A stretch of DNA of 64,000 nucleotides from Fusobacteria bacterium ZRK30 (GTDB lineage Bacteria; Fusobacteriota; Fusobacteriia; Fusobacteriales; Fusobacteriaceae): assembly GCA_024628785.1 (NCBI GenBank), contig CP102404.1, positions 1 through 64,000 on the forward strand. The letters run 5' to 3'. Below the pieces are notes generated by a model. That model was not told where the DNA came from and ran no database searches. It saw only the letters and a program-made list of their open reading frames with translations. The position numbers and the translations under genes are program-made. Positions 462 to 54,880 of this stretch are shown one piece after another. How positions within the stretch are numbered: position 1 is the stretch's first letter; every line of letters starts with the position of its first letter.

Positions 462-1391
462 CTAATTTATTAAAAATATCAATCCTCCAATTGTAAAAAT
501 AGATACTATTGTTCCCAAGACTGTAACAGCAGCCGTTTCCTTTTCATATATTTTAAATTTCGATGAAAAAATAGGCGCTGTAGAAGCTGTAGGCATAGCA
601 GAAACAATAAGAATCTCATTAAAAATATTTCCTGTAACTCCTATTCCCACCATTACACCATAGAATATTATGGGGGATGTAATATTTCTTATAAATATAA
701 GAAGTGCTACCTCACGAGTAATAGCTATCCTGGTGTAAGCCATAAAAAGCCCTGTGGTAAATAATGAAATAGCTGGTGCTGTATCTCCTAAAAATTTAAA
801 GCCGGATATAATATATTCTGGTATCGATATATGAAAAAATGAAAACATAAGTCCCAGTATAGGTGCAAAGACAATCGGGGTTTTAGCCAAATTAAACAAC
901 TGTAAAAATATTGATTTAAAGCTGACATTACCCGGATCATCATGATACTCTACCAAAAACATCGTAATAGGAGTTATTAATAGAAACACAAGGAGACTCC
1001 CAATAACTACAACTGCTATTCCTTCACTTCCATAGAGATGAGAAATTATAGGAATTCCCATAAAAGCTGCATTTGGAAAAGCAGACATGAGAGAAGCCTG
1101 GGAAGTTTCTTTAGGATGTTTTTTTAATTTATAGTGGTATATAGTATACGTTTTAATATACGTCAACAAAAGACCTATACTAATTACAACAATTATATTT
1201 ATATTCAGAAATGTTTCTATCGGCTTTGTCACAGTCATATTGAATAAAAGAGCCGGCGTGGCCAGTAAAATTATAAAATCAACCAATGATTTTGAGTGTT
1301 CCTCCTTGAATATCCCTTTTTTTCCTGCATACCATCCTATTAAAATAGTAAAAAATAAAGGAAATAGAATATTAATAATCAATAAAATCAT
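462..1391 (-). CDS. AEC (auxin efflux carrier) family transporter
   Basis: The 309-residue protein is almost entirely hydrophobic, with about ten predicted membrane segments. It carries the AEC/malate-permease pattern: an N-terminal segment ending in a GWYAGKKG turn, an 'ATPALLFNM' segment near residue 45, and a central 'AFPNAAFMGIPI' segment near residue 105. AEC proteins export or exchange organic anions such as malate across the cytoplasmic membrane; the substrate cannot be read from the sequence. The ATG at 1391 is preceded by a GGGGGA ribosome site. The gene stands alone, divergent from the molybdenum/purine island, with a perfect palindrome in the shared upstream region. Length is normal for the family. 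Confidence 0.85.
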   Translation of the reverse strand: MILLIINILFPLFFTILIGWYAGKKGIFKEEHSKSLVDFIILLATPALLFNMTVTKPIETFLNINIIVVISIGLLLTYIKTYTIYHYKLKKHPKETSQASLMSAFPNAAFMGIPIISHLYGSEGIAVVVIGSLLVFLLITPITMFLVEYHDDPGNVSFKSIFLQLFNLAKTPIVFAPILGLMFSFFHISIPEYIISGFKFLGDTAPAISLFTTGLFMAYTRIAITREVALLIFIRNITSPIIFYGVMVGIGVTGNIFNEILIVSAMPTASTAPIFSSKFKIYEKETAAVTVLGTIVSIFTIGGLIFLIN

Positions 1392-1575
1392 AGCTGTCCC
1401 CCTATTTTATTTGATATCTCATTCATAATATTCACCCTCTTTATTTATTTTATTCTTACAAATTCTTGCTTCTCACTTCCTTTCTTACTGTTAAAGATTT
1501 AAATCCTTCGATCTAAATTCACCTGCCTTTTGCTTGTTTTATATTTGAATTATAGTGAAGATCGTTTTAAAGTTA

Positions 1576-1591
1576 AACGTCAATTGACGTT
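1576..1591. promoter_or_regulatory. 16-bp perfect palindrome, candidate operator
   Basis: AACGTCAATTGACGTT is its own reverse complement. It lies in the divergent region between the AEC transporter and yqeB, 185 bp from the former and 165 bp from the latter. Its symmetry and position fit a dimeric repressor site. The regulator is unknown. Confidence 0.4.
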
Positions 1592-1643
1592 ATCTTTTTC
1601 ATTTTGAACCATTTCATAAAAACATGACTATGTAAACATAATA

Positions 1644-1695
1644 GATATCTGATTAACATATCTAATAACCGGTAGTTCCCTTTAAGAACTTGGCA
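1644..1695 (-). pseudogene. Remnant of a pepP-like gene upstream of yqeB
   Basis: This stretch aligns with 23816-23871 inside the intact Xaa-Pro aminopeptidase gene, with about 46 of 52 aligned positions identical and one 4-base gap. On the minus strand it still reads FLKGTTGY, matching the aminopeptidase segment, and then hits a stop. The 4-base deletion destroys the frame, so it is a relic and not a gene. Its end overlaps the -24 element of the yqeB sigma-54 promoter. Confidence 0.6.
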
Positions 1696-1706
1696 TATAA
1701 ATTGCT
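1691..1706 (+). promoter_or_regulatory. Sigma-54 (-24/-12) promoter of yqeB
   Basis: TGGCATATAAATTGCT matches the TGGCAC-N5-TTGCW consensus, with GG at 1692-1693, GC at 1704-1705 and exactly 10 bp between the two conserved G positions (1693 and 1704). It lies 51 bp before the yqeB start. A partial match to the upstream activator motif seen before ygeX (TTCATTTTGA) is at 1598-1607. Confidence 0.75.
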
Positions 1707-1756
1707 ACATGTATATTTAAAAGTACATTATTAAATAGTTATCTGGAGGGTATGAA

Positions 1757-2602
1757 ATGAAAGATGTAATAGTGATTAGAGGCGGAGGAGATATAGCTTC
1801 TGGAGTGATACAAAAATTTCATAGGAGTGGGTTTAAAGTAATCGTGTTAGAAATAGAGAAACCATCTTTTATTAGGAGGAAAATATGTTATGGAGAAGCA
1901 GTATATGAAGGGGAAATGTTCTTAGAGGGAAGCAGGGCTATTTTAGCTCAAAATATATTTGAAGCTGAGGAAATAATAAAAAATAATCATATCGCTATAC
2001 TGATAGATCAAACAGGGAATAAAATAAAAAAGTTAAAGCCACTAGCTGTAGTCGATGCTACTTTAGCGAAAAAGAATTTAGGAACTAACATAAAGATGGC
2101 TCCCATAACAATAGGGCTGGGACCAGGATTTGAAGCTGGAAAAGATGTAAACATTGCAATAGAAACAATGCGTGGTCACGATCTTGGGAGATTAATTTTT
2201 AAAGGAAAGACACTGGATAATACAGGAGTTCCAGGGGTAATCGACGGTTACGGAAAAAAAAGGGTTGTCTATAGTGAAACTTCAGGAGTAATTAGAAATA
2301 TAAAAAATATAGGGGACATGGTAAAGAAAGACCAGGTATTGGGCTACATAGGTGAAACTGAAATAAAATCTCCTCTAACGGGTATTATAAGAGGACTTCT
2401 AAGGAATGGCTATACGGTACCAAAGGGGTTTAAAATAGGAGATATTGATCCAAGATTAGAAGAAAGAAAAAATTGTTTCACTATATCTGATAAAGCAAGA
2501 AACATAGGTGGATCAGCTTTAGAAGCCTTTTTTTATTTGAGGAGGAGACTGGATGAGAAAACTAATAATATTAATAATAACACTAGCAATAATAGGGTGT
2601 AG
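1757..2602 (+). CDS. yqeB: Selenium-dependent molybdenum hydroxylase accessory protein YqeB
   Basis: The 281-residue protein starts with a Rossmann-type glycine motif, RGGGDIASG (residues 8-16). A second beta-rich domain around residues 175-235 resembles a lipoyl/biotinyl-like fold (SGVIRNI, GDMVKKDQVLGYIGE). This is the architecture of YqeB (EF2563 family), which is distantly XdhC-like and occurs in genomes with selenium-dependent molybdenum hydroxylases. Its biochemical step is not firmly known; it is thought to help mature the labile-selenium molybdenum cofactor. It opens the island under a -24/-12 promoter and overlaps the start of modA by about 50 bp, so the two are translationally linked. 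Context with xdhD, moaA and the molybdopterin-binding protein supports the assignment. Confidence 0.85.
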   Translation: MKDVIVIRGGGDIASGVIQKFHRSGFKVIVLEIEKPSFIRRKICYGEAVYEGEMFLEGSRAILAQNIFEAEEIIKNNHIAILIDQTGNKIKKLKPLAVVDATLAKKNLGTNIKMAPITIGLGPGFEAGKDVNIAIETMRGHDLGRLIFKGKTLDNTGVPGVIDGYGKKRVVYSETSGVIRNIKNIGDMVKKDQVLGYIGETEIKSPLTGIIRGLLRNGYTVPKGFKIGDIDPRLEERKNCFTISDKARNIGGSALEAFFYLRRRLDEKTNNINNNTSNNRV

Positions 2603-3257
2603 TAAACCTGAAGAGCATCAAGAAGTTATAATTAATGCAGCAGCAAGCCTTACAGAAGGGATAGAAGAGGTCGCCAAATCTTATGAAAAAGAAACAGGAA
2701 TTAAAGTGATAATAAATTTAGGTGGTTCTGGTTCTTTAAGAAAACAGGTAGAAGAAGGAGCTCCTGTTGATTTTATCTTTTTAGCTTCTGAAAAAGATTT
2801 AAGAAAATTACAGCAGGAAGATCTTGTGGAAAAAAAAGAAGATTTGCTTGAAAATAATTTAGTAGTTATAGGAAAAAATAAATTAGACGAATTAAAGGAT
2901 ATAACTGGATTAATAGCGATAGGAGATCCTGGTTTTGTTCCAGCGGGGAGATATGCTAAAGAAGCTTTAATAACAGAAGGTATATGGGACAGCGTAAAAA
3001 AAAATATTTTATTAACAAAGGATGTAAGATCAGCATTATCATATACTGAAAGAGAAGAAGTTGATTATTCATTTGTTTATAAAACAGATGCAAATCCCAA
3101 AAAAGGGTATCAAATCTATCAGGTGGACAAAAGAAAACATTCTCCTATTATATATTCTGCAGGAGTTAGAAAAGGGAGTGTTGAAGGAAGTAAATTTAAC
3201 GAATATCTGCTGAAAAGAATATCAATTTTTAAAAAATATGGATTTGTGGTGAGATAG
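2553..3257 (+). CDS. modA: Molybdate ABC transporter substrate-binding lipoprotein ModA
   Basis: The 234-residue protein begins with a lipoprotein signal peptide ending in the lipobox IIGC (Cys16), so it is probably anchored outside the inner membrane. The mature part has the ModA pattern: an 'AAASLTEGIEEV' strand-turn-helix, 'NLGGSGSLRKQVEEGAPVD', and a late 'YSAGV' segment. It should bind molybdate or tungstate for the molybdenum cofactor made by MoaA and used by XdhD. The start lies inside the 3' end of yqeB behind an AGGAGGAG site. No modB or modC follows; only a possible modB tail remains, so import must rely on components elsewhere or be lost. Confidence 0.85.
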   Translation: MRKLIILIITLAIIGCSKPEEHQEVIINAAASLTEGIEEVAKSYEKETGIKVIINLGGSGSLRKQVEEGAPVDFIFLASEKDLRKLQQEDLVEKKEDLLENNLVVIGKNKLDELKDITGLIAIGDPGFVPAGRYAKEALITEGIWDSVKKNILLTKDVRSALSYTEREEVDYSFVYKTDANPKKGYQIYQVDKRKHSPIIYSAGVRKGSVEGSKFNEYLLKRISIFKKYGFVVR

Positions 3258-3267
3258 AACTCAATTA

Positions 3268-3366
3268 GTGTTTACTCAAAAAGCGGGATTAATAGCTTGT
3301 ATAACTGTATGTATTAACTTTATTGCAATGTGGAATTATAACTATTGTTGGATAAATAAAAAATAA
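3268..3366 (+). pseudogene. Possible C-terminal remnant of modB
   Basis: Directly after modA a 32-codon open stretch from a GTG reads as one hydrophobic segment (LIACITVCINFIAM) followed by a short basic tail ending in NKK and a stop. No ribosome site precedes it. Its position and shape fit the last membrane helix of a ModB permease whose upstream part has been deleted. It could also be chance coding-like sequence. Confidence 0.3.
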
Positions 3367-3382
3367 AAAAAGGGATGAGTCT

Positions 3383-4345
3383 ATGAAAGATAAGTTTGGC
3401 AGAGAAATAGATTATATGAGAATATCTGTAACAGAGCAGTGTAACTATAGGTGCTTTTATTGTATGCCTCAAGAAGAAAATATTAAACTGGCAAAAAAAA
3501 ATGTTATAAGTAAAAATGAAATACTAGATATTGTGAAGGTAGGGGTAAAATTAGGGATAAAGAAAATCAGAATAACAGGCGGTGAGCCTTTAATCCGAAG
3601 AGATATAGATAAAATATTATATGAAATATCTAAAATAAAGGAAATAAAAGAATTATGCCTTACTACAAATGGGAGTACTTTAAATGAAAAAATAGAATTT
3701 CTCAAGATTTGCGGAGTAACAAGAATAAATGTAAGTTTAGATTCTTTAAAAGAAAAAAAATTTAAAGAAATAACTAAGACAGGAGATTTTAATAAAGTTT
3801 GGAAAGGAATAAAAAGAGCTATAGAAAATGGGATAGAAGTGAGGATTAATAGTGTAATAATAGATGGAGTAAATGAAGATGAAATAATAAATTTAGCTAA
3901 TTTAACAGAAACATATCCTATAGATGTAAGATTTATAGAATTAATGCCAATAGGAGAAGGGAAGAGGTATCAAGGATTTACAGGAAATGATATACGAAAG
4001 ATCATATGTAGGAGTAAAAAGCTAAAGAATTTAAAAAGAAAAGAGGGGGCTTCAGAATATTATAGATTAGAAGGGGGAAAAGGGAAAATAGGGTTTATTA
4101 ATCCAATAAGTAATTGTTTTTGCCGGGAATGTAATAGGATAAGAGTCACATCAAAAGGAATAATGAAACAGTGTCTTAATAAAAAATCAACCTTTAAATT
4201 AAGTAATGTTATGAAAAATAGTATAAATGAAAAAGAAAAAATAGAAATTATTGCTAAAGAAATATATAATAAACCTGAAAAGCATTTATTTAATAACATA
4301 AATAAATTCGAAGATGAATATAATATGAATCAAATAGGCGGGTAA
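3383..4345 (+). CDS. moaA: GTP 3',8-cyclase MoaA (molybdenum cofactor biosynthesis)
   Basis: This 320-residue radical-SAM enzyme converts GTP to 3',8-cyclo-7,8-dihydro-GTP, the first step of molybdopterin synthesis. The N-terminal [4Fe-4S] motif is C20-x3-C24-x2-C27 (CNYRCFYC). The second cluster typical of MoaA is the CRECNRIR...KQC region near residues 245-265. The protein ends in the conserved Gly-Gly pair (NQIGG) that enters the active site in this family. An AAAGGGATG site precedes the ATG. It lies between modA and the sigma-54 activator, which starts only 6 bp after its stop, and should supply cofactor for XdhD. Confidence 0.95.
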   Translation: MKDKFGREIDYMRISVTEQCNYRCFYCMPQEENIKLAKKNVISKNEILDIVKVGVKLGIKKIRITGGEPLIRRDIDKILYEISKIKEIKELCLTTNGSTLNEKIEFLKICGVTRINVSLDSLKEKKFKEITKTGDFNKVWKGIKRAIENGIEVRINSVIIDGVNEDEIINLANLTETYPIDVRFIELMPIGEGKRYQGFTGNDIRKIICRSKKLKNLKRKEGASEYYRLEGGKGKIGFINPISNCFCRECNRIRVTSKGIMKQCLNKKSTFKLSNVMKNSINEKEKIEIIAKEIYNKPEKHLFNNINKFEDEYNMNQIGG

Positions 4346-4351
4346 TTTATA

Positions 4352-6097
4352 ATGATAAAAGATGGAATAGGGTTAGTACAGATAAAAAGTCATGTAAAAA
4401 AATATGCTGCTATAATTTCTTCAACAATTAAGGTTGACGTAGAGATAATTGATAAAGATATGATAAGAATAGCAGGAACAGGAATCTTTAAAAAAAGTGT
4501 TGGAGTGACAGCCAAAGGATCAGTTTATAAAGATGTATTAAAAACAGGAGAACCTCATGTAATAAAGGAGCCGGGAAAAGATAAATTATGTATGACGTGC
4601 TTAGAAAAAGATAGGTGCCCAGAAACGCTGGAAATATCAACTCCAATATTTTATAATAGCAAGATAATAGGAGTAATAGGCTTAGTGTGTTCTACAAATT
4701 ATCAAAAGGAAAGAGTTCTAGAAAATTTAAACTCACACCTTAAGTTTATAAAACAAATAAGTGAATTTATTTCTATAAAAATAAATGAACAAAATGATAA
4801 TTTATTTAGAAAAGAAAGGGAAGAACTCTTCTATGAAATACTGAATGTTATAGATAAAGGTGTAATAGTATTAGACCAAGAGAATAAGTTGATTCATTTA
4901 AATAATTCTGCCATGAAAGAGTTAGAATTATCTCCTAATTCATTGAATAAAAAGATAAATATAGAAAATAAGAATGAATTCTTATTTGGAAAAGAAACCT
5001 ATGAAGTAACTACCTGTGAAAGAAGTTATACTATAGTAGGAAAAATGTTTGAAACTGAAAATCTAAAAGAAGAAACAAATAATGTCTTTATATTTGATAG
5101 TATTAAAAAATTAAATGATGAATTTCAACAATTATCAGCAGAGAGGGCTTTAGGGATAGAAGCTATAATAGGGGAGTCTTATCCAATGCTCAGGCTGAAA
5201 GGAAAAATAAAAAAAATAGCTCCAACTAAATCTACTGTATTAATAACCGGAGAAAGTGGAACCGGTAAAGAATTAGTAGCCAGAGCTATCCATGCTCACT
5301 CAGATAGAAAGGATAAACCTTTTATAGCAATAAATTGTGCAGCGATACCAGATTCTCTACTTGAAAGTGAATTATTCGGTTACATAAAAGGAGCTTTTTC
5401 AGGGGCTAGTTCTAATGGGAGAATGGGAAAATTTGAATTAGCTAATAAAGGGGTAATATTTTTAGATGAAATAGGAGATATGCCTCTTTATTTACAGGCA
5501 AAACTTCTAAGAGTACTGCAAGAAAGAAAATTAGTAAGAATAGGATCTAATAAATTAATGGATTTAGATATAAGGGTTTTGGCAGCTACAAATATAGATC
5601 TTAAAGAGAGGATTGAAAAGAAAAAATTTAGAGAAGATCTTTATTATCGATTAAATGTAATTCCTATTGAAATTCCAAATCTAAAGAGCAGAGGAAAAGA
5701 CATACTGTTAATAATAGAACAGTTGATGAAAAAATATAATAAAGTTTTAAATAAGTATGTTCATACCATAGATATTGAAACTAAAAAAATATTAATGTCT
5801 TATGAGTGGCCTGGAAATGTCAGGGAATTAGAAAATGTAGTAGAATTTATGATAAATTTATCTGATGAAAGTGGTATTATAACGAAAGACTTACTTCCTG
5901 ACAATTTAATTTCAGAAGAAAAATCTGCTGTAAATATTTTAGAAAGTGTTTTAACTATAGCTGATGCAGAAAAGATTTTAATAGAAAATGCAATAAAGAA
6001 ATATGGCAATAATACAAGTGGGAAAAAAGAAGCTGCAAAAGAATTAGGGATAGGAATAGCAACATTATATAGGAAAGTTGAAAAATATAATATTTAA
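4352..6097 (+). CDS. Sigma-54-dependent transcriptional activator (YgeV-like)
   Basis: The 581-residue protein has three parts. Residues 1-150 form a GAF/PAS-like sensory region with a cysteine group C80-x2-C83-x5-C89, which could bind metal or an Fe-S cluster or sense redox. A PAS-like linker follows. The AAA+ domain has Walker A GESGTGKE at about residue 300 and the sigma-54 contact loop GAFSGA near residue 347. A Fis-type helix-turn-helix ends the protein (SGKKEAAKELGIGIATLYRK). This is the layout of E. coli YgeV, whose gene sits next to ygeX and ygeY. It probably acts on the -24/-12 promoters before yqeB and ygeX through the TTATCAAAATGAKAA sites. A strong terminator follows at once. Confidence 0.9.
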   Translation: MIKDGIGLVQIKSHVKKYAAIISSTIKVDVEIIDKDMIRIAGTGIFKKSVGVTAKGSVYKDVLKTGEPHVIKEPGKDKLCMTCLEKDRCPETLEISTPIFYNSKIIGVIGLVCSTNYQKERVLENLNSHLKFIKQISEFISIKINEQNDNLFRKEREELFYEILNVIDKGVIVLDQENKLIHLNNSAMKELELSPNSLNKKINIENKNEFLFGKETYEVTTCERSYTIVGKMFETENLKEETNNVFIFDSIKKLNDEFQQLSAERALGIEAIIGESYPMLRLKGKIKKIAPTKSTVLITGESGTGKELVARAIHAHSDRKDKPFIAINCAAIPDSLLESELFGYIKGAFSGASSNGRMGKFELANKGVIFLDEIGDMPLYLQAKLLRVLQERKLVRIGSNKLMDLDIRVLAATNIDLKERIEKKKFREDLYYRLNVIPIEIPNLKSRGKDILLIIEQLMKKYNKVLNKYVHTIDIETKKILMSYEWPGNVRELENVVEFMINLSDESGIITKDLLPDNLISEEKSAVNILESVLTIADAEKILIENAIKKYGNNTSGKKEAAKELGIGIATLYRKVEKYNI

Positions 6098-51856: not shown

Positions 51857-52603
51857 TTATTTACATACTCTTTGGAATACATCCTTTTTTTTTATCATCC
51901 TGTCATAGATTAGATATATTGCAAAAATTACTATAACTGAAGATAAGATAATTATTTTCCAGCTTTCTAAAATAGAATATTTATCTGATAGTTTCCCGCT
52001 TATGGGAAGGAGCATGGTAATAAACAAAGATTCTAAGGTGTTAAAAGATGATACCATAGTGCTTCTTAAAGAGTCTTCCTTTATGAGCTCTTCATGGAGA
52101 TAAACTCCTACTTTCATTTCTAATATCAGAATGATAAAAACATGGAGCATGAAGAAGATAAGAGTGTATCTGCTATATATCATAGCAAAAAGTTTCTGTA
52201 AATTTTCAGTATGTCCCTCTTTTTTGAGTTTATTTACTACCCAGCTTCTCAATGAACCAGACGACAGTGCTTCAGCTGTTCCTGTTAATATCCCCGAAAA
52301 AAGTAGAATACCATAATTTTTATTCATTAAAAGTAATAATAATCCCAATCCTCTAATAAATCCACTTATCATAAGGGTCCTTCTCTGACCTAAACTATCG
52401 GCCAGTATTCCAGTGGGGATCTCCAGTATAAATGTAACCAACCAAAATACCGACAGATAAAACCCTAATTCAGTCAGGGAATACCCTTTCTTGCTCAAAT
52501 AAATGTATAAAATAGGCATAAAAAATGTAACTCCTACAGATCCTAAAACAGATCCGGTAAAATAATAATTTTTTATTTTATCTACCTTCAATCTTACCTC
52601 CAT
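51857..52603 (-). CDS. MFS transporter, internally shortened
   Basis: The 248-residue protein starts like a complete MFS N-terminal half: six membrane segments with the loop GILADSLGQRRTLMISG. After about residue 145 it jumps to what looks like the last helices of the C-terminal half (LPISGKLSDKYS then one more membrane segment). Normal MFS length is near 400, so about 150 residues appear to be missing while the reading frame is kept. It is probably a deletion derivative and unlikely to transport. Its start overlaps the DUF2087 gene upstream, whose stop is at 52578. The end lies next to the 8-bp tandem repeat. Confidence 0.7.
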   Translation of the reverse strand: MEVRLKVDKIKNYYFTGSVLGSVGVTFFMPILYIYLSKKGYSLTELGFYLSVFWLVTFILEIPTGILADSLGQRRTLMISGFIRGLGLLLLLMNKNYGILLFSGILTGTAEALSSGSLRSWVVNKLKKEGHTENLQKLFAMIYSRYTLIFFMLHVFIILILEMKVGVYLHEELIKEDSLRSTMVSSFNTLESLFITMLLPISGKLSDKYSILESWKIIILSSVIVIFAIYLIYDRMIKKKDVFQRVCK

Positions 52604-52868
52604 TATCTCTTAAAAAATAAGCTTTTCCATCTTTACTTCTTTCTAAATACCCTATGTCAATTAATTCTCTCCTTAAAAGGCAGCTATCATTGAGGACAGA
52701 AAGATTATTGAGGCATTTATTAATCTCATTTTCAGTGTATATTTTTTTAGCTTTAAAAAATGTTATTAAATATTTTAAAATTTGTATCCGTTTATTTCTT
52801 TTAGTGGGATAAAGTTTTAATAAACCATTTTTATCCAAAAAATTATTAACTTTTTTTTGATCGAACAT
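52578..52868 (-). CDS. DUF2087-domain protein
   Basis: The 96-residue protein matches the DUF2087 pattern: 'VNNFLDKNGLLKLYPTKRNKR', an ILKYL helix, YTENEINKCLNNL, then 'DSCLLRRELIDIGYLERSKDG'. The domain looks like a small winged helix, often fused to or beside regulators; its function is unproven. It overlaps the shortened MFS gene by 26 bp, so they share a transcript. A second member of the family is at 61331-61597. Confidence 0.85.
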   Translation of the reverse strand: MFDQKKVNNFLDKNGLLKLYPTKRNKRIQILKYLITFFKAKKIYTENEINKCLNNLSVLNDSCLLRRELIDIGYLERSKDGKAYFLRDNGGKIEGR

Positions 52869-53368
52869 ATTATGCTCCTACTTATCTTCTAATTTTTTTA
52901 TTTATGGTACAAGAAGTTAAAAAACTTAATTTTTTCACTTAATATTCTCATAGAGTTTATATTTTTGTCTTAAAAAAAATCAGCTATTACAAACGATGAA
53001 ATAAGCGATATGCAATACATTAACGTTACCAGTAAGAATTTAAAGATTTTAATTATAATTTTAACCATCTCCTCTGGGATCTAATTTAAACAGTTTGAGT
53101 TTTATTCTCTGCTATTTCTTTTTAATTGAACAAATCGACACACACTCAACCCTGTTGGAATATAGAAATACATATCTTCTGATCCGTTCTTTTTTTAGAA
53201 TATTTATAATTTCATATTTTAAAGAAAAAAGAGAGCCCACGCTCCCTTGCTTCTTATTTTCTCAATTTTCATTTATCATGTTCTTTTTCGACTCTCTCCC
53301 AAGGGTCACTCTAACATATTATGTTGTTAAAACTAATTTTTCAATTTTTTTATAAAAAAACCTTAAAA
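52869..53368. other. Intergenic region with no supported gene
   Basis: AT-rich spacer between divergent genes. An 86-codon Phe/Leu-rich open stretch at 53095-53355 has no ribosome site and low-complexity composition, so I do not call it. A short GC-richer hairpin (GAGC/GCTC) lies near 53233-53250. Confidence 0.5.
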
Positions 53369-53439
53369 TTGGAATTTTTTTTCCTTTATTTTTCCAAAAC
53401 AAATCTTTTTTTTATTTTTTTATATAAATTTGGAATTTT
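53369..53439. promoter_or_regulatory. TTGGAATTTT repeats in the promoter of the HTH/TPR regulator
   Basis: TTGGAATTTT occurs at 53369-53378 and 53430-53439, and an inverted TTCCAA at 53392-53397 pairs with the first copy. The second copy lies just before TATACT (53444-53449), a likely -10 box, and 33 bp before the start codon. It fits an autoregulatory operator. Confidence 0.5.
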
Positions 53440-53471
53440 ATTGTATACTTTCATTACGATTAGGAGGGTTT

Positions 53472-54680
53472 ATGAATAAGAAAATATTTGAACTTATAAA
53501 AGAGCATAAAATTGGAATTAAGGAACTGGAGAATCCAAAAATGAGCCTGTCTCTACTATACAAGATCAGAAGCGGAAAAACACCTTTAAAACCAAAACAT
53601 CTACCATATTTAGTTATTTCACTTAATAAAATATTTAAAGAAAAAAATATAGATAAGATCATTACTACAAAAGACCTATATATTACTCCCCAGCAGGAGT
53701 TGGAACAATTAGTCAACAAAAGCCTTATAAATAAAAGCATCTATTCCACTGAAAAACAAGAAGAGATAAAGAAGTTTGAACGAAAAAAAGAAGTTCATAG
53801 CTGCAGATACCGATATATTGTAGCCAAGCACAATCAAAAGACAGGCAGAAAAGAAGAAGCTTTAAAGATCTATTATGACCTGTTAAATAATTTCTCCTGC
53901 TCTGACATTTTCTACTCTGTCTTAATTGAGATCATCAGATTGGAAAAATTAGAACTTACCTATGATATATATATGAAGTATATAAAACAGATCGATACAG
54001 CTCCGTATAAAACAAAGGCCCTCTTGGCTTACAATACTGGAGTTAATCTTTTAAGAACCACAAAATGGAAGAAAGCTGTCCCATGCTTTGAAGTTCTTGT
54101 GAATATGCCAGAGATTACAGAACACTACTATCACTCCTATAATAACCTGGGAATCTGTTGTCAAAACTTAGGCGAATATGAAAAAGCCATTGAATATTTT
54201 AAAAAAAGAGTGAGTGATCCATCAAATTATCATGATTTAGAAATTTGTTATATTAATATTATCTCCTGTGCCAGAGAGATGAAAAATGAAATACTGGTAA
54301 AGATTACTCTTAATAAACTTGAAAATATCCTTAAAGAATTAAAAGATAAAACACTATATCAAACTTATTGGAATATAGGGTTAGCCTATTTATATTTAGG
54401 AGAAAAAAGAAAAGCTGTAAGCGCATTTGAAAAGGAAGTTTCATTTCCTATAAATTTTGATAACCCTCATTTTAACCCAGTTAAATATTTAGATTCCATC
54501 AAACACCTTGTTTTACTCTATGACAGCCAGCCGTTAAAACAGCAGGGATTGATAAAAATAGTTAGCAGAATACCAAAAAAAATAATGGATTATGATTTCT
54601 TGACATATATATTAAAGTTCTACATAAATAATTCTTTGGAATATGAAGCCAGCCTTCTTATTCAGAAAATACCATTATAA
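53472..54680 (+). CDS. HTH/TPR cytoplasmic regulator (RRNPP-like)
   Basis: The ATG at 53472 follows TAGGAGGG, giving 402 residues. Residues 1-60 look like a divergent XRE-type helix-turn-helix (IFELIKEHKIGIKELE, then SLSLLYKIRSGK). Residues from about 110 are tetratricopeptide repeats, clearest in AYNTGVNLLRTTKWKKAVPCF, YNNLGICCQNLGEYEKAIEYF and YWNIGLAYLYLGEKRKAVSAF. No signal peptide or membrane segment. This layout is that of Rgg/PlcR/NprR/Rap regulators, which bind imported peptides. Nineteen bases after the stop a short secreted peptide gene begins. The match to RRNPP is structural, not a clear sequence hit. Confidence 0.72.
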   Translation: MNKKIFELIKEHKIGIKELENPKMSLSLLYKIRSGKTPLKPKHLPYLVISLNKIFKEKNIDKIITTKDLYITPQQELEQLVNKSLINKSIYSTEKQEEIKKFERKKEVHSCRYRYIVAKHNQKTGRKEEALKIYYDLLNNFSCSDIFYSVLIEIIRLEKLELTYDIYMKYIKQIDTAPYKTKALLAYNTGVNLLRTTKWKKAVPCFEVLVNMPEITEHYYHSYNNLGICCQNLGEYEKAIEYFKKRVSDPSNYHDLEICYINIISCAREMKNEILVKITLNKLENILKELKDKTLYQTYWNIGLAYLYLGEKRKAVSAFEKEVSFPINFDNPHFNPVKYLDSIKHLVLLYDSQPLKQQGLIKIVSRIPKKIMDYDFLTYILKFYINNSLEYEASLLIQKIPL

Positions 54681-54699
54681 ATTTAAAGGAGGAATTTCA

Positions 54700-54837
54700 A
54701 TGAAAACAAAATGTTTAATCTTTTTAGGTGTTCTGTTACTCTTTAGCATAACTTTTGCTAATAAAGATGACGGTCAGGGAAGAAGTGCTCCTAAAGTCCC
54801 AACTGACATATCTCAAATTATATTTGAATCAAACTAA
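54700..54837 (+). CDS. Small secreted peptide precursor downstream of the TPR regulator
   Basis: AAAGGAGG (54685-54692) precedes the ATG at 54700. The 45-residue product has a Sec signal peptide (MKTK, then a 16-residue hydrophobic stretch ending SITFA) with likely cleavage after Ala20. The remaining 25 residues are NKDDGQGRSAPKVPTD followed by ISQIIFESN. Size, signal peptide and position directly behind an HTH/TPR gene resemble Phr, PapR or NprX precursors. No family is recognisable by sequence. A terminator ends the two-gene unit. Confidence 0.65.
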   Translation: MKTKCLIFLGVLLLFSITFANKDDGQGRSAPKVPTDISQIIFESN

Positions 54838-54841
54838 AAAT

Positions 54842-54880
54842 ATAGCTCTTAAACTATATATGGTTTAAGGGCTATTTTTT
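54842..54880 (+). terminator. Terminator of the regulator-peptide operon
   Basis: ATAGCTCTTAAAC pairs with GTTTAAGGGCTAT (one T-G pair) around an 8-base loop, followed by T5-6. Confidence 0.88.

Follow-up and report, generated by a model that had tools for sequence, protein, structure and literature searches.

The window analyzed here, a stretch of 64,000 nucleotides, is part of a 1.04-Mb contig in the 3.6-Mb genome of a marine fusobacterium, whose genus within the Fusobacteriaceae is probably Psychrilyobacter. It carries a gene for a regulator with a helix-turn-helix (HTH) domain and TPRs and, downstream of it, a gene whose small peptide product has a predicted signal sequence. The following features were assigned at this locus.

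51857..52603, minus strand: MFS transporter gene, 248 aa, probably truncated (Pfam MFS_1)
52578..52868, minus strand: gene for a DUF2087 protein, the next gene on the divergent side (Pfam PF09860, E = 8.5e-20; kept in the neighbor genome G007)
53229..53248, minus strand: terminator about 70 to 85 nt past the divergent promoter (terminator and folding analysis)
53316..53344, minus strand: divergent promoter TTGAAA-17-TAATAT, beyond the operator as seen from the regulator gene (promoter scan; homologous sequence upstream of several paralogues)
53367..53399, plus strand: putative autoregulatory operator, inverted repeat AATTGGAATTT-N-TTTCCAAAA (pattern scan of eight genomes; position as in paralogues)
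53430..53439, plus strand: third operator half-site, TTGGAATTTT, within the -35/-10 spacer (sequence; layout shared by paralogues)
53444..53449, plus strand: probable -10 element TATACT of the regulator-propeptide operon (by eye; position conserved in paralogues)
53462..53468, plus strand: ribosome-binding site (RBS) of the regulator gene, AGGAGGG (sequence)
53472..54680, plus strand: HTH-TPR regulator and putative peptide receptor, 402 aa (ORF, RBS, Pfam, AlphaFold, fold comparison)
54685..54692, plus strand: RBS of the propeptide gene, AAAGGAGG (sequence; retained in most copies)
54700..54837, plus strand: propeptide, 45 aa, with a Sec signal peptide and cleavage site between TFA and N; putative autoinducer precursor (ORF, RBS, homologues)
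54842..54880, plus strand: shared intrinsic terminator (terminator and folding analysis; similar hairpin in paralogues)

The regulator gene extends from the ATG at 53472 to the stop codon at 54678-54680, and no terminator separates it from the propeptide gene (ATG at 54700, stop at 54835-54837), whose product is MKTKCLIFLGVLLLFSITFA up to the predicted cleavage site and NKDDGQGRSAPKVPTDISQIIFESN beyond it. The pair is followed by a Rho-independent terminator with a T-tail (54842-54875; -17.4 kcal/mol; z = -6.5), and 0 of 200 shuffles were equally good. An earlier note on this DNA had described the 402-residue regulator, a gap of 19 bases between its stop and the propeptide ATG, the strong RBS, the signal-peptide gene and the shared terminator, and each item is correct in the sequence. 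The TTGGAATTTT repeats which it had noticed in the promoter are likewise real: they are half-sites of the operator pattern AATTRGAATTT..TTTCYAAAA at 53367-53399, with the third box at 53430-53439. The probable -10 element was not returned by a consensus promoter scan. The divergent promoter runs into the terminator at 53248-53229, and its product should therefore be a short RNA, or else the slot has been emptied of cargo. Rfam returned nothing near threshold for this transcript. A leader similar to it (53229-53344, minus strand), AACACTTAGGAGAGAG, was observed at several paralogous loci.

Pfam analysis of the regulator revealed TPR models above the cut-off (TPR_2, E = 1.3e-11) and nothing but TPRs. 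HTH_3 was matched by 5 of 13 aligned family members, but Pfam had no match for the HTH of the window protein itself. We assigned this domain because of its predicted fold, its alignment to the HTH_3-matching homologues and the operator evidence; thus, the HTH proposed in the earlier note stands on these grounds, although Pfam is blind to it. The AlphaFold model (4-row alignment; pLDDT 87, pTM 0.72) shows an HTH-like domain at residues 1 to 70 and then a TPR superhelix, the part for which a structure prediction had been suggested.

When the N-terminal domain was folded alone, the closest solved folds were those of ComR (Z of 7.4 and 7.2) and of Rgg2 and PrgX (6.5), scores tied with those of other XRE-type HTHs, e.g., HigA and DdrO. 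In a fold comparison of the whole model (VIA-align), LGN was best (Z of 21), and the bacterial quorum receptors among the matching TPR superhelices were NprR (17.8) and Rap (15.6 to 16.4). Since the eukaryotic LGN scores above both, the fold alone does not discriminate. Foldseek with the whole model placed no RRNPP entry among the best 50, and a family-profile search of solved-structure sequences yielded generic designed and eukaryotic TPRs only, among the 60 matches listed. The modeled fold is compatible with RRNPP but is no proof of it. The named RRNPP subfamily models in Pfam and NCBIfam did not match the regulator, which had generic TPR matches only. A phage search gave no match, and a plasmid search (query P0001) gave none at an E value of 1e-3 and generic TPR matches only at an E value of 10.

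The signal sequence of the propeptide consists of a K-rich n-region, a LIFLGVLLLFSI core and the TFA-N site; Sec signal peptides were called with an in-house hydropathy scorer. Comparison with a 93% identical orthologue showed that the small ORF stays open in both genomes. Four of the five changed codons in the signal sequence are synonymous and one is non-synonymous; the stretch NKDDGQGR does not differ, and amino acid changes are frequent in the C-terminal half. Among the genus copies, too, NKDxGxGR beside the cleavage site is better conserved than the last 5 to 10 residues near SQIIFESN; these last residues, for which the earlier note had suggested docking, are thus only a possible pheromone. 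In a chance test of genes of at least 150 aa in the fetched loci, with one scorer used for all, a signal-peptide-like small ORF with an RBS was found within -20 to +120 of the stop after 16 of 371 genes. Ten of these cases are the regulators, and because these are related to one another, the test counts as no more than two to four independent observations. Another case is a family peptide that has been displaced, and the rest (about 5 of 350 unrelated genes) correspond to a background of about 1.4%.

The cassette belongs to a genus-wide paralogous family, and 11 copies with an intact regulator were compared, plus broken ones. The propeptide gene lies directly downstream in 10 of the 11, with its frame shifted by a poly-A run in three of those, and is missing in the second copy of L047, where the regulator is intact. 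The propeptides of the genus (40 to 45 aa) share a conserved signal followed by N[KE]xxG[QMR]xx and a tail that varies. At L050, the regulator is broken and no peptide is present; at L053, the regulator is broken and the family peptide is displaced about 2 kb downstream; at 55 kb of contig C2 in G007, the operator and propeptide are kept and the regulator is lost. Across 10 copies, mature-peptide distance correlated with TPR residues 181 to 290 (r = 0.67, P = 0.0004) but not with the HTH (r = 0.11, P = 0.2). This covariation supports binding of the peptide by the TPRs but does not prove it, because adjacent genes are linked and the 10 copies are related. L052 combines the HTH type of the window with a TPR C terminus and peptide type as in L049, which has HTH type C.

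Propeptides starting with MKKKW (L044, L045, L046, L047 and L051) have a homopolymer of A7 to A10 directly after the ATG. Two copies have A9, which keeps the frame; the other three have A7, A8 or A10 and are out of frame, the remaining ORF being intact. These three frame-disrupted copies among five with an uninterrupted poly-A run count against the peptide-signaling reading. Phase variation, transcriptional slippage, decay and assembly error are all possible causes, and a phase-variable pheromone is one possible outcome.

Regulators of the genus have an inverted repeat about 110 bases upstream and a third half-site in the promoter. Three operator cores were distinguished, type A (ACTGAATTTT..ATTCAGT), type C (AATGAATTTT..ATTCATT) and the type B of the window, and across the genus copies HTH type and operator core covary. 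In eight genus genomes, the three patterns occurred 12 times. Ten occurrences lie at regulator copies, counting broken ones, and the other two at a remnant in G007 and at the end of a contig in G002. With the patterns reversed as controls, 0, 0 and 1 sites were obtained, and the control pattern was empty in the genome of the window. When ungapped inverted repeats were tested against shuffles, the type A and type C operators reached significance but not type B, which was judged instead by the genome-wide specificity of its pattern. Because the patterns are confined to cassettes, remnants and one contig end, the regulons appear, as far as sequence can tell, to be very narrow and limited to the regulator's own operon and the divergent unit.

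The genes on the divergent side of the operator vary from copy to copy. In the window, the DUF2087 gene is a possible target of the regulator. At L051, in the same genome, three MFS genes lie on this side, and HD-GYP genes are divergent at two genus copies in other genomes, as well as in the clade with tandem precursors described below. At L053 (oriented 492-5611; G000:C2, about 1.12 Mb), a RiPP-like operon is divergent to the broken regulator. It comprises a 29-aa Cys-containing peptide (MKIIVIPKNEAFEMEARHNCCNGNTGGAS), a radical-SAM protein (294 aa), a SPASM protein (97 aa) and an MFS protein (426 aa), together with a partial MFS-like ORF (120 aa), a SPASM-like protein (94 aa) and an ABC protein (565 aa); its radical-SAM protein was found in none of the other seven genus genomes. 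At L052 (oriented 3773-4657; G000:C2, about 160 kb), a 25-aa Cys-rich peptide (MKKINYTVTKTQRHCGGGCCGHSEW) is followed by a PapB/CcpM-like radical-SAM protein that is cut short; an insertion interrupts it, and transposase genes separate it from the regulator. RiPP-maturase models matched the radical-SAM proteins below their cut-offs.

Beyond the genus, Ilyobacter polytropus DSM 2926 (NC_014633.1; receptor WP_013388349.1), two congeners and one genome of a further genus carry a homologous HTH-TPR gene upstream of a secreted precursor built of repeats. The precursors of these four genomes contain (SSRRATSGGWAV)x7, (SSRRAGSGGWAV)x6, (SSRRSGSGGWAV)x6 and (PSTRRSSGGGWEAVEAT)x4. With 4 to 7 units in 86 to 105 aa, each stops exactly after the W of its final unit (GGW-stop), so that all end at the GGW of the repeat unit, whereas the C terminus of the genus propeptides varies. 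In RefSeq, the two Ilyobacter polytropus proteins are annotated as helix-turn-helix regulator and hypothetical protein. In two additional genera, the secreted peptides are divergent and small (30 and 41 aa). In a tree, the genus copies form one group, which the divergent-peptide pair joins, and the tandem clade forms another. Relatives without a detected peptide fall between the two, and therefore a single origin of the peptide-regulator pairs of the genus and the tandem clade is possible but unproven. More remotely related HTH-TPR genes in further fusobacterial genera (g13, g4 and g12) had no convincing signal-peptide ORF nearby; they were rejected as parts of the same system, and their lack of such an ORF counts against the peptide-signaling reading. 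Single-copy distant regulators occur in nearly every genome of two genera (L064-L075 in g13; L076-L089 in g4), and these peptide-less regulators are possibly orphan or eavesdropper receptors.

RRNPP_detector selects RRNPP candidates by five published criteria (PMC10075063). Compared with these, the window propeptide of 45 aa lies within the range of 10 to 100 aa, which the 105 aa of Ilyobacter polytropus slightly exceed; it has a predicted signal peptide for Sec secretion; the receptor (402 aa) is within about 250 to 500 aa; TPRs of the peptide-binding kind are indicated by the Pfam TPR models and the predicted superhelix; and receptor and propeptide are adjacent. The N-terminal HTH, a feature of RRNPPA transcriptional regulators, is indicated by the fold, HTH_3 in aligned members and the operator covariation. 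Like RRNPP/RRNPPA systems (PlcR-PapR, NprR-NprX, Rap-Phr, AimR-AimP, Rgg-SHP, ComR-ComS and PrgX), the pair consists of a receptor gene for a 250- to 500-aa protein with HTH and TPRs and then a small Sec-type propeptide, with an autoregulatory operator, adjacent target genes, Opp-type importers encoded in the genome, and tandem pheromone copies in some precursors. Unlike them, it occurs in diderm Fusobacteriota and matches no named subfamily model. Because no such model matches, we class the pair as working like RRNPP and take membership by descent as no more than possible.

Several units in one secreted precursor are known for some Rap and NprR propeptides of Bacillota (PMC11343458, PMC9765709). 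The fusobacterial clade resembles these (PMC11343458) but differs in having 4 to 7 near-identical units, a conserved RR..GGW core and an HTH-bearing receptor. The closest known arrangement to the radical-SAM-linked cassettes is the control of RaS-RiPPs (streptide, streptosactin and tryglysin) by streptococcal Rgg/SHP, where the cassette likewise adjoins an operon of a short precursor and a radical-SAM maturase. However, SHPs are short and exported by PptAB, while the fusobacterial propeptides have classical signal peptides, and both RiPP-linked copies in the window genome are damaged, the regulator being broken at one and the radical-SAM gene interrupted at the other.

We propose, with a probability of about 0.72, that the pair is an RRNPP-like export and re-import autoinducing peptide system in a diderm. 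In this model, the N-terminal HTH would bind the operator between the regulator's own promoter and the divergent promoter, as the operator evidence supports. The propeptide, judging from its signal sequence, would be exported by Sec, cleaved by signal peptidase and trimmed further to a short fragment. After passage of the outer membrane, an oligopeptide permease would take the fragment back up; 16 SBP_bac_5 proteins are encoded. The fragment may then bind the concave face of the TPR superhelix, consistent with the covariation with residues 181 to 290, and so alter how the regulator binds the operator; both the regulator-propeptide operon and the divergent cargo would thereby be switched in a density-dependent manner. 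Cassette duplication, with joint change of HTH and operator and of peptide and middle TPRs, would have created parallel private channels for different cargo (RaS-RiPP operons, MFS exporters, HD-GYP genes), the divergent slot of the window holding merely a short terminated transcript ahead of DUF2087/MFS. The RRNPP-like reading of the earlier note is supported by these comparisons: relatives keep the pair, with the ORF present in 10/11 genus copies and 4/4 genomes of the tandem clade, signal-sequence codons are conserved, the C terminus varies, and the search for Opp importers which the note had advised found 16 Opp/Dpp-type binding proteins. A TPR gene kept in relatives without any downstream signal-peptide ORF, or a small ORF without codon conservation, had been named as the outcome that would speak against it, and the comparison did not bear this out.

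Fusobacteria are diderms with an outer membrane, and therefore an exported peptide first enters the periplasm. The same parts could thus form a cell-autonomous sensor whose peptide stays in the producer's periplasm and monitors not density but secretion, periplasmic proteolysis or peptide uptake. Sec export does end in the periplasm, and the genes beside the pair include no dedicated outer-membrane exporter; nevertheless, porins may let short peptides through, and divergent mature peptides that track their receptors, together with tandem precursors, better fit cell-to-cell signaling, so we regard a periplasmic sensor as unlikely. Rather less likely still is that the peptide is a bacteriocin-like or envelope-active effector whose expression the HTH-TPR protein controls upon another cue. 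Such peptides would be small, secreted and variable, as these are, and MFS exporters and RiPP operons lie near paralogous loci. However, the two-gene unit has no immunity gene, the weakly conserved mature part tracks the TPRs, and the hydrophilic 10-aa units of the tandem clade (SSRRATSGGW) are unlike pore formers; moreover, the peptide is kept beside the same receptor type in two clades and two orientations. Least probable, and in our judgment very improbable, is that the small ORF encodes an uncleaved membrane micropeptide or arose by chance next to an ordinary XRE-TPR repressor. Signal peptides of this length can remain membrane anchors, and the peptide is lost at the second L047 copy and at L050 with its broken regulator, but homologues occupy the same place across the genus with RBS and signal conserved, well above the background of such ORFs.

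In the literature searched, which left most subscription journals and preprints outside its scope, RRNPP signaling is treated as a Gram-positive trait, the family being described from Bacillota, their plasmids and phages only; we found no report of it outside Bacillota, including Fusobacteria. With a well-supported candidate in Fusobacteriota, cytoplasmic sensing of peptide pheromones would reach into the diderms, and the question would arise of how the peptide passes the outer membrane. The wider proposal is of an RRNPP-type branch in an outer-membrane phylum whose ribosomal peptide is exported across two membranes and re-imported, with several private channels per genome, some wired to radical-SAM RiPPs, and with up to seven pheromone copies per precursor in Ilyobacter and relatives; it seems to us evenly poised. 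Ilyobacter polytropus is a named type strain with a ready candidate pheromone, SSRRATSGGW, which makes the claim directly testable, and the radical-SAM peptide operons linked to such cassettes suggest natural products that are unexplored and possibly density controlled.

Finally, in the propeptides of L048, L049, L052 and L053, the signal sequence ends in FTLVLC, a near-lipobox whose Cys, at the cleavage site, is conserved. Judged by this motif, they may be processed by signal peptidase II.
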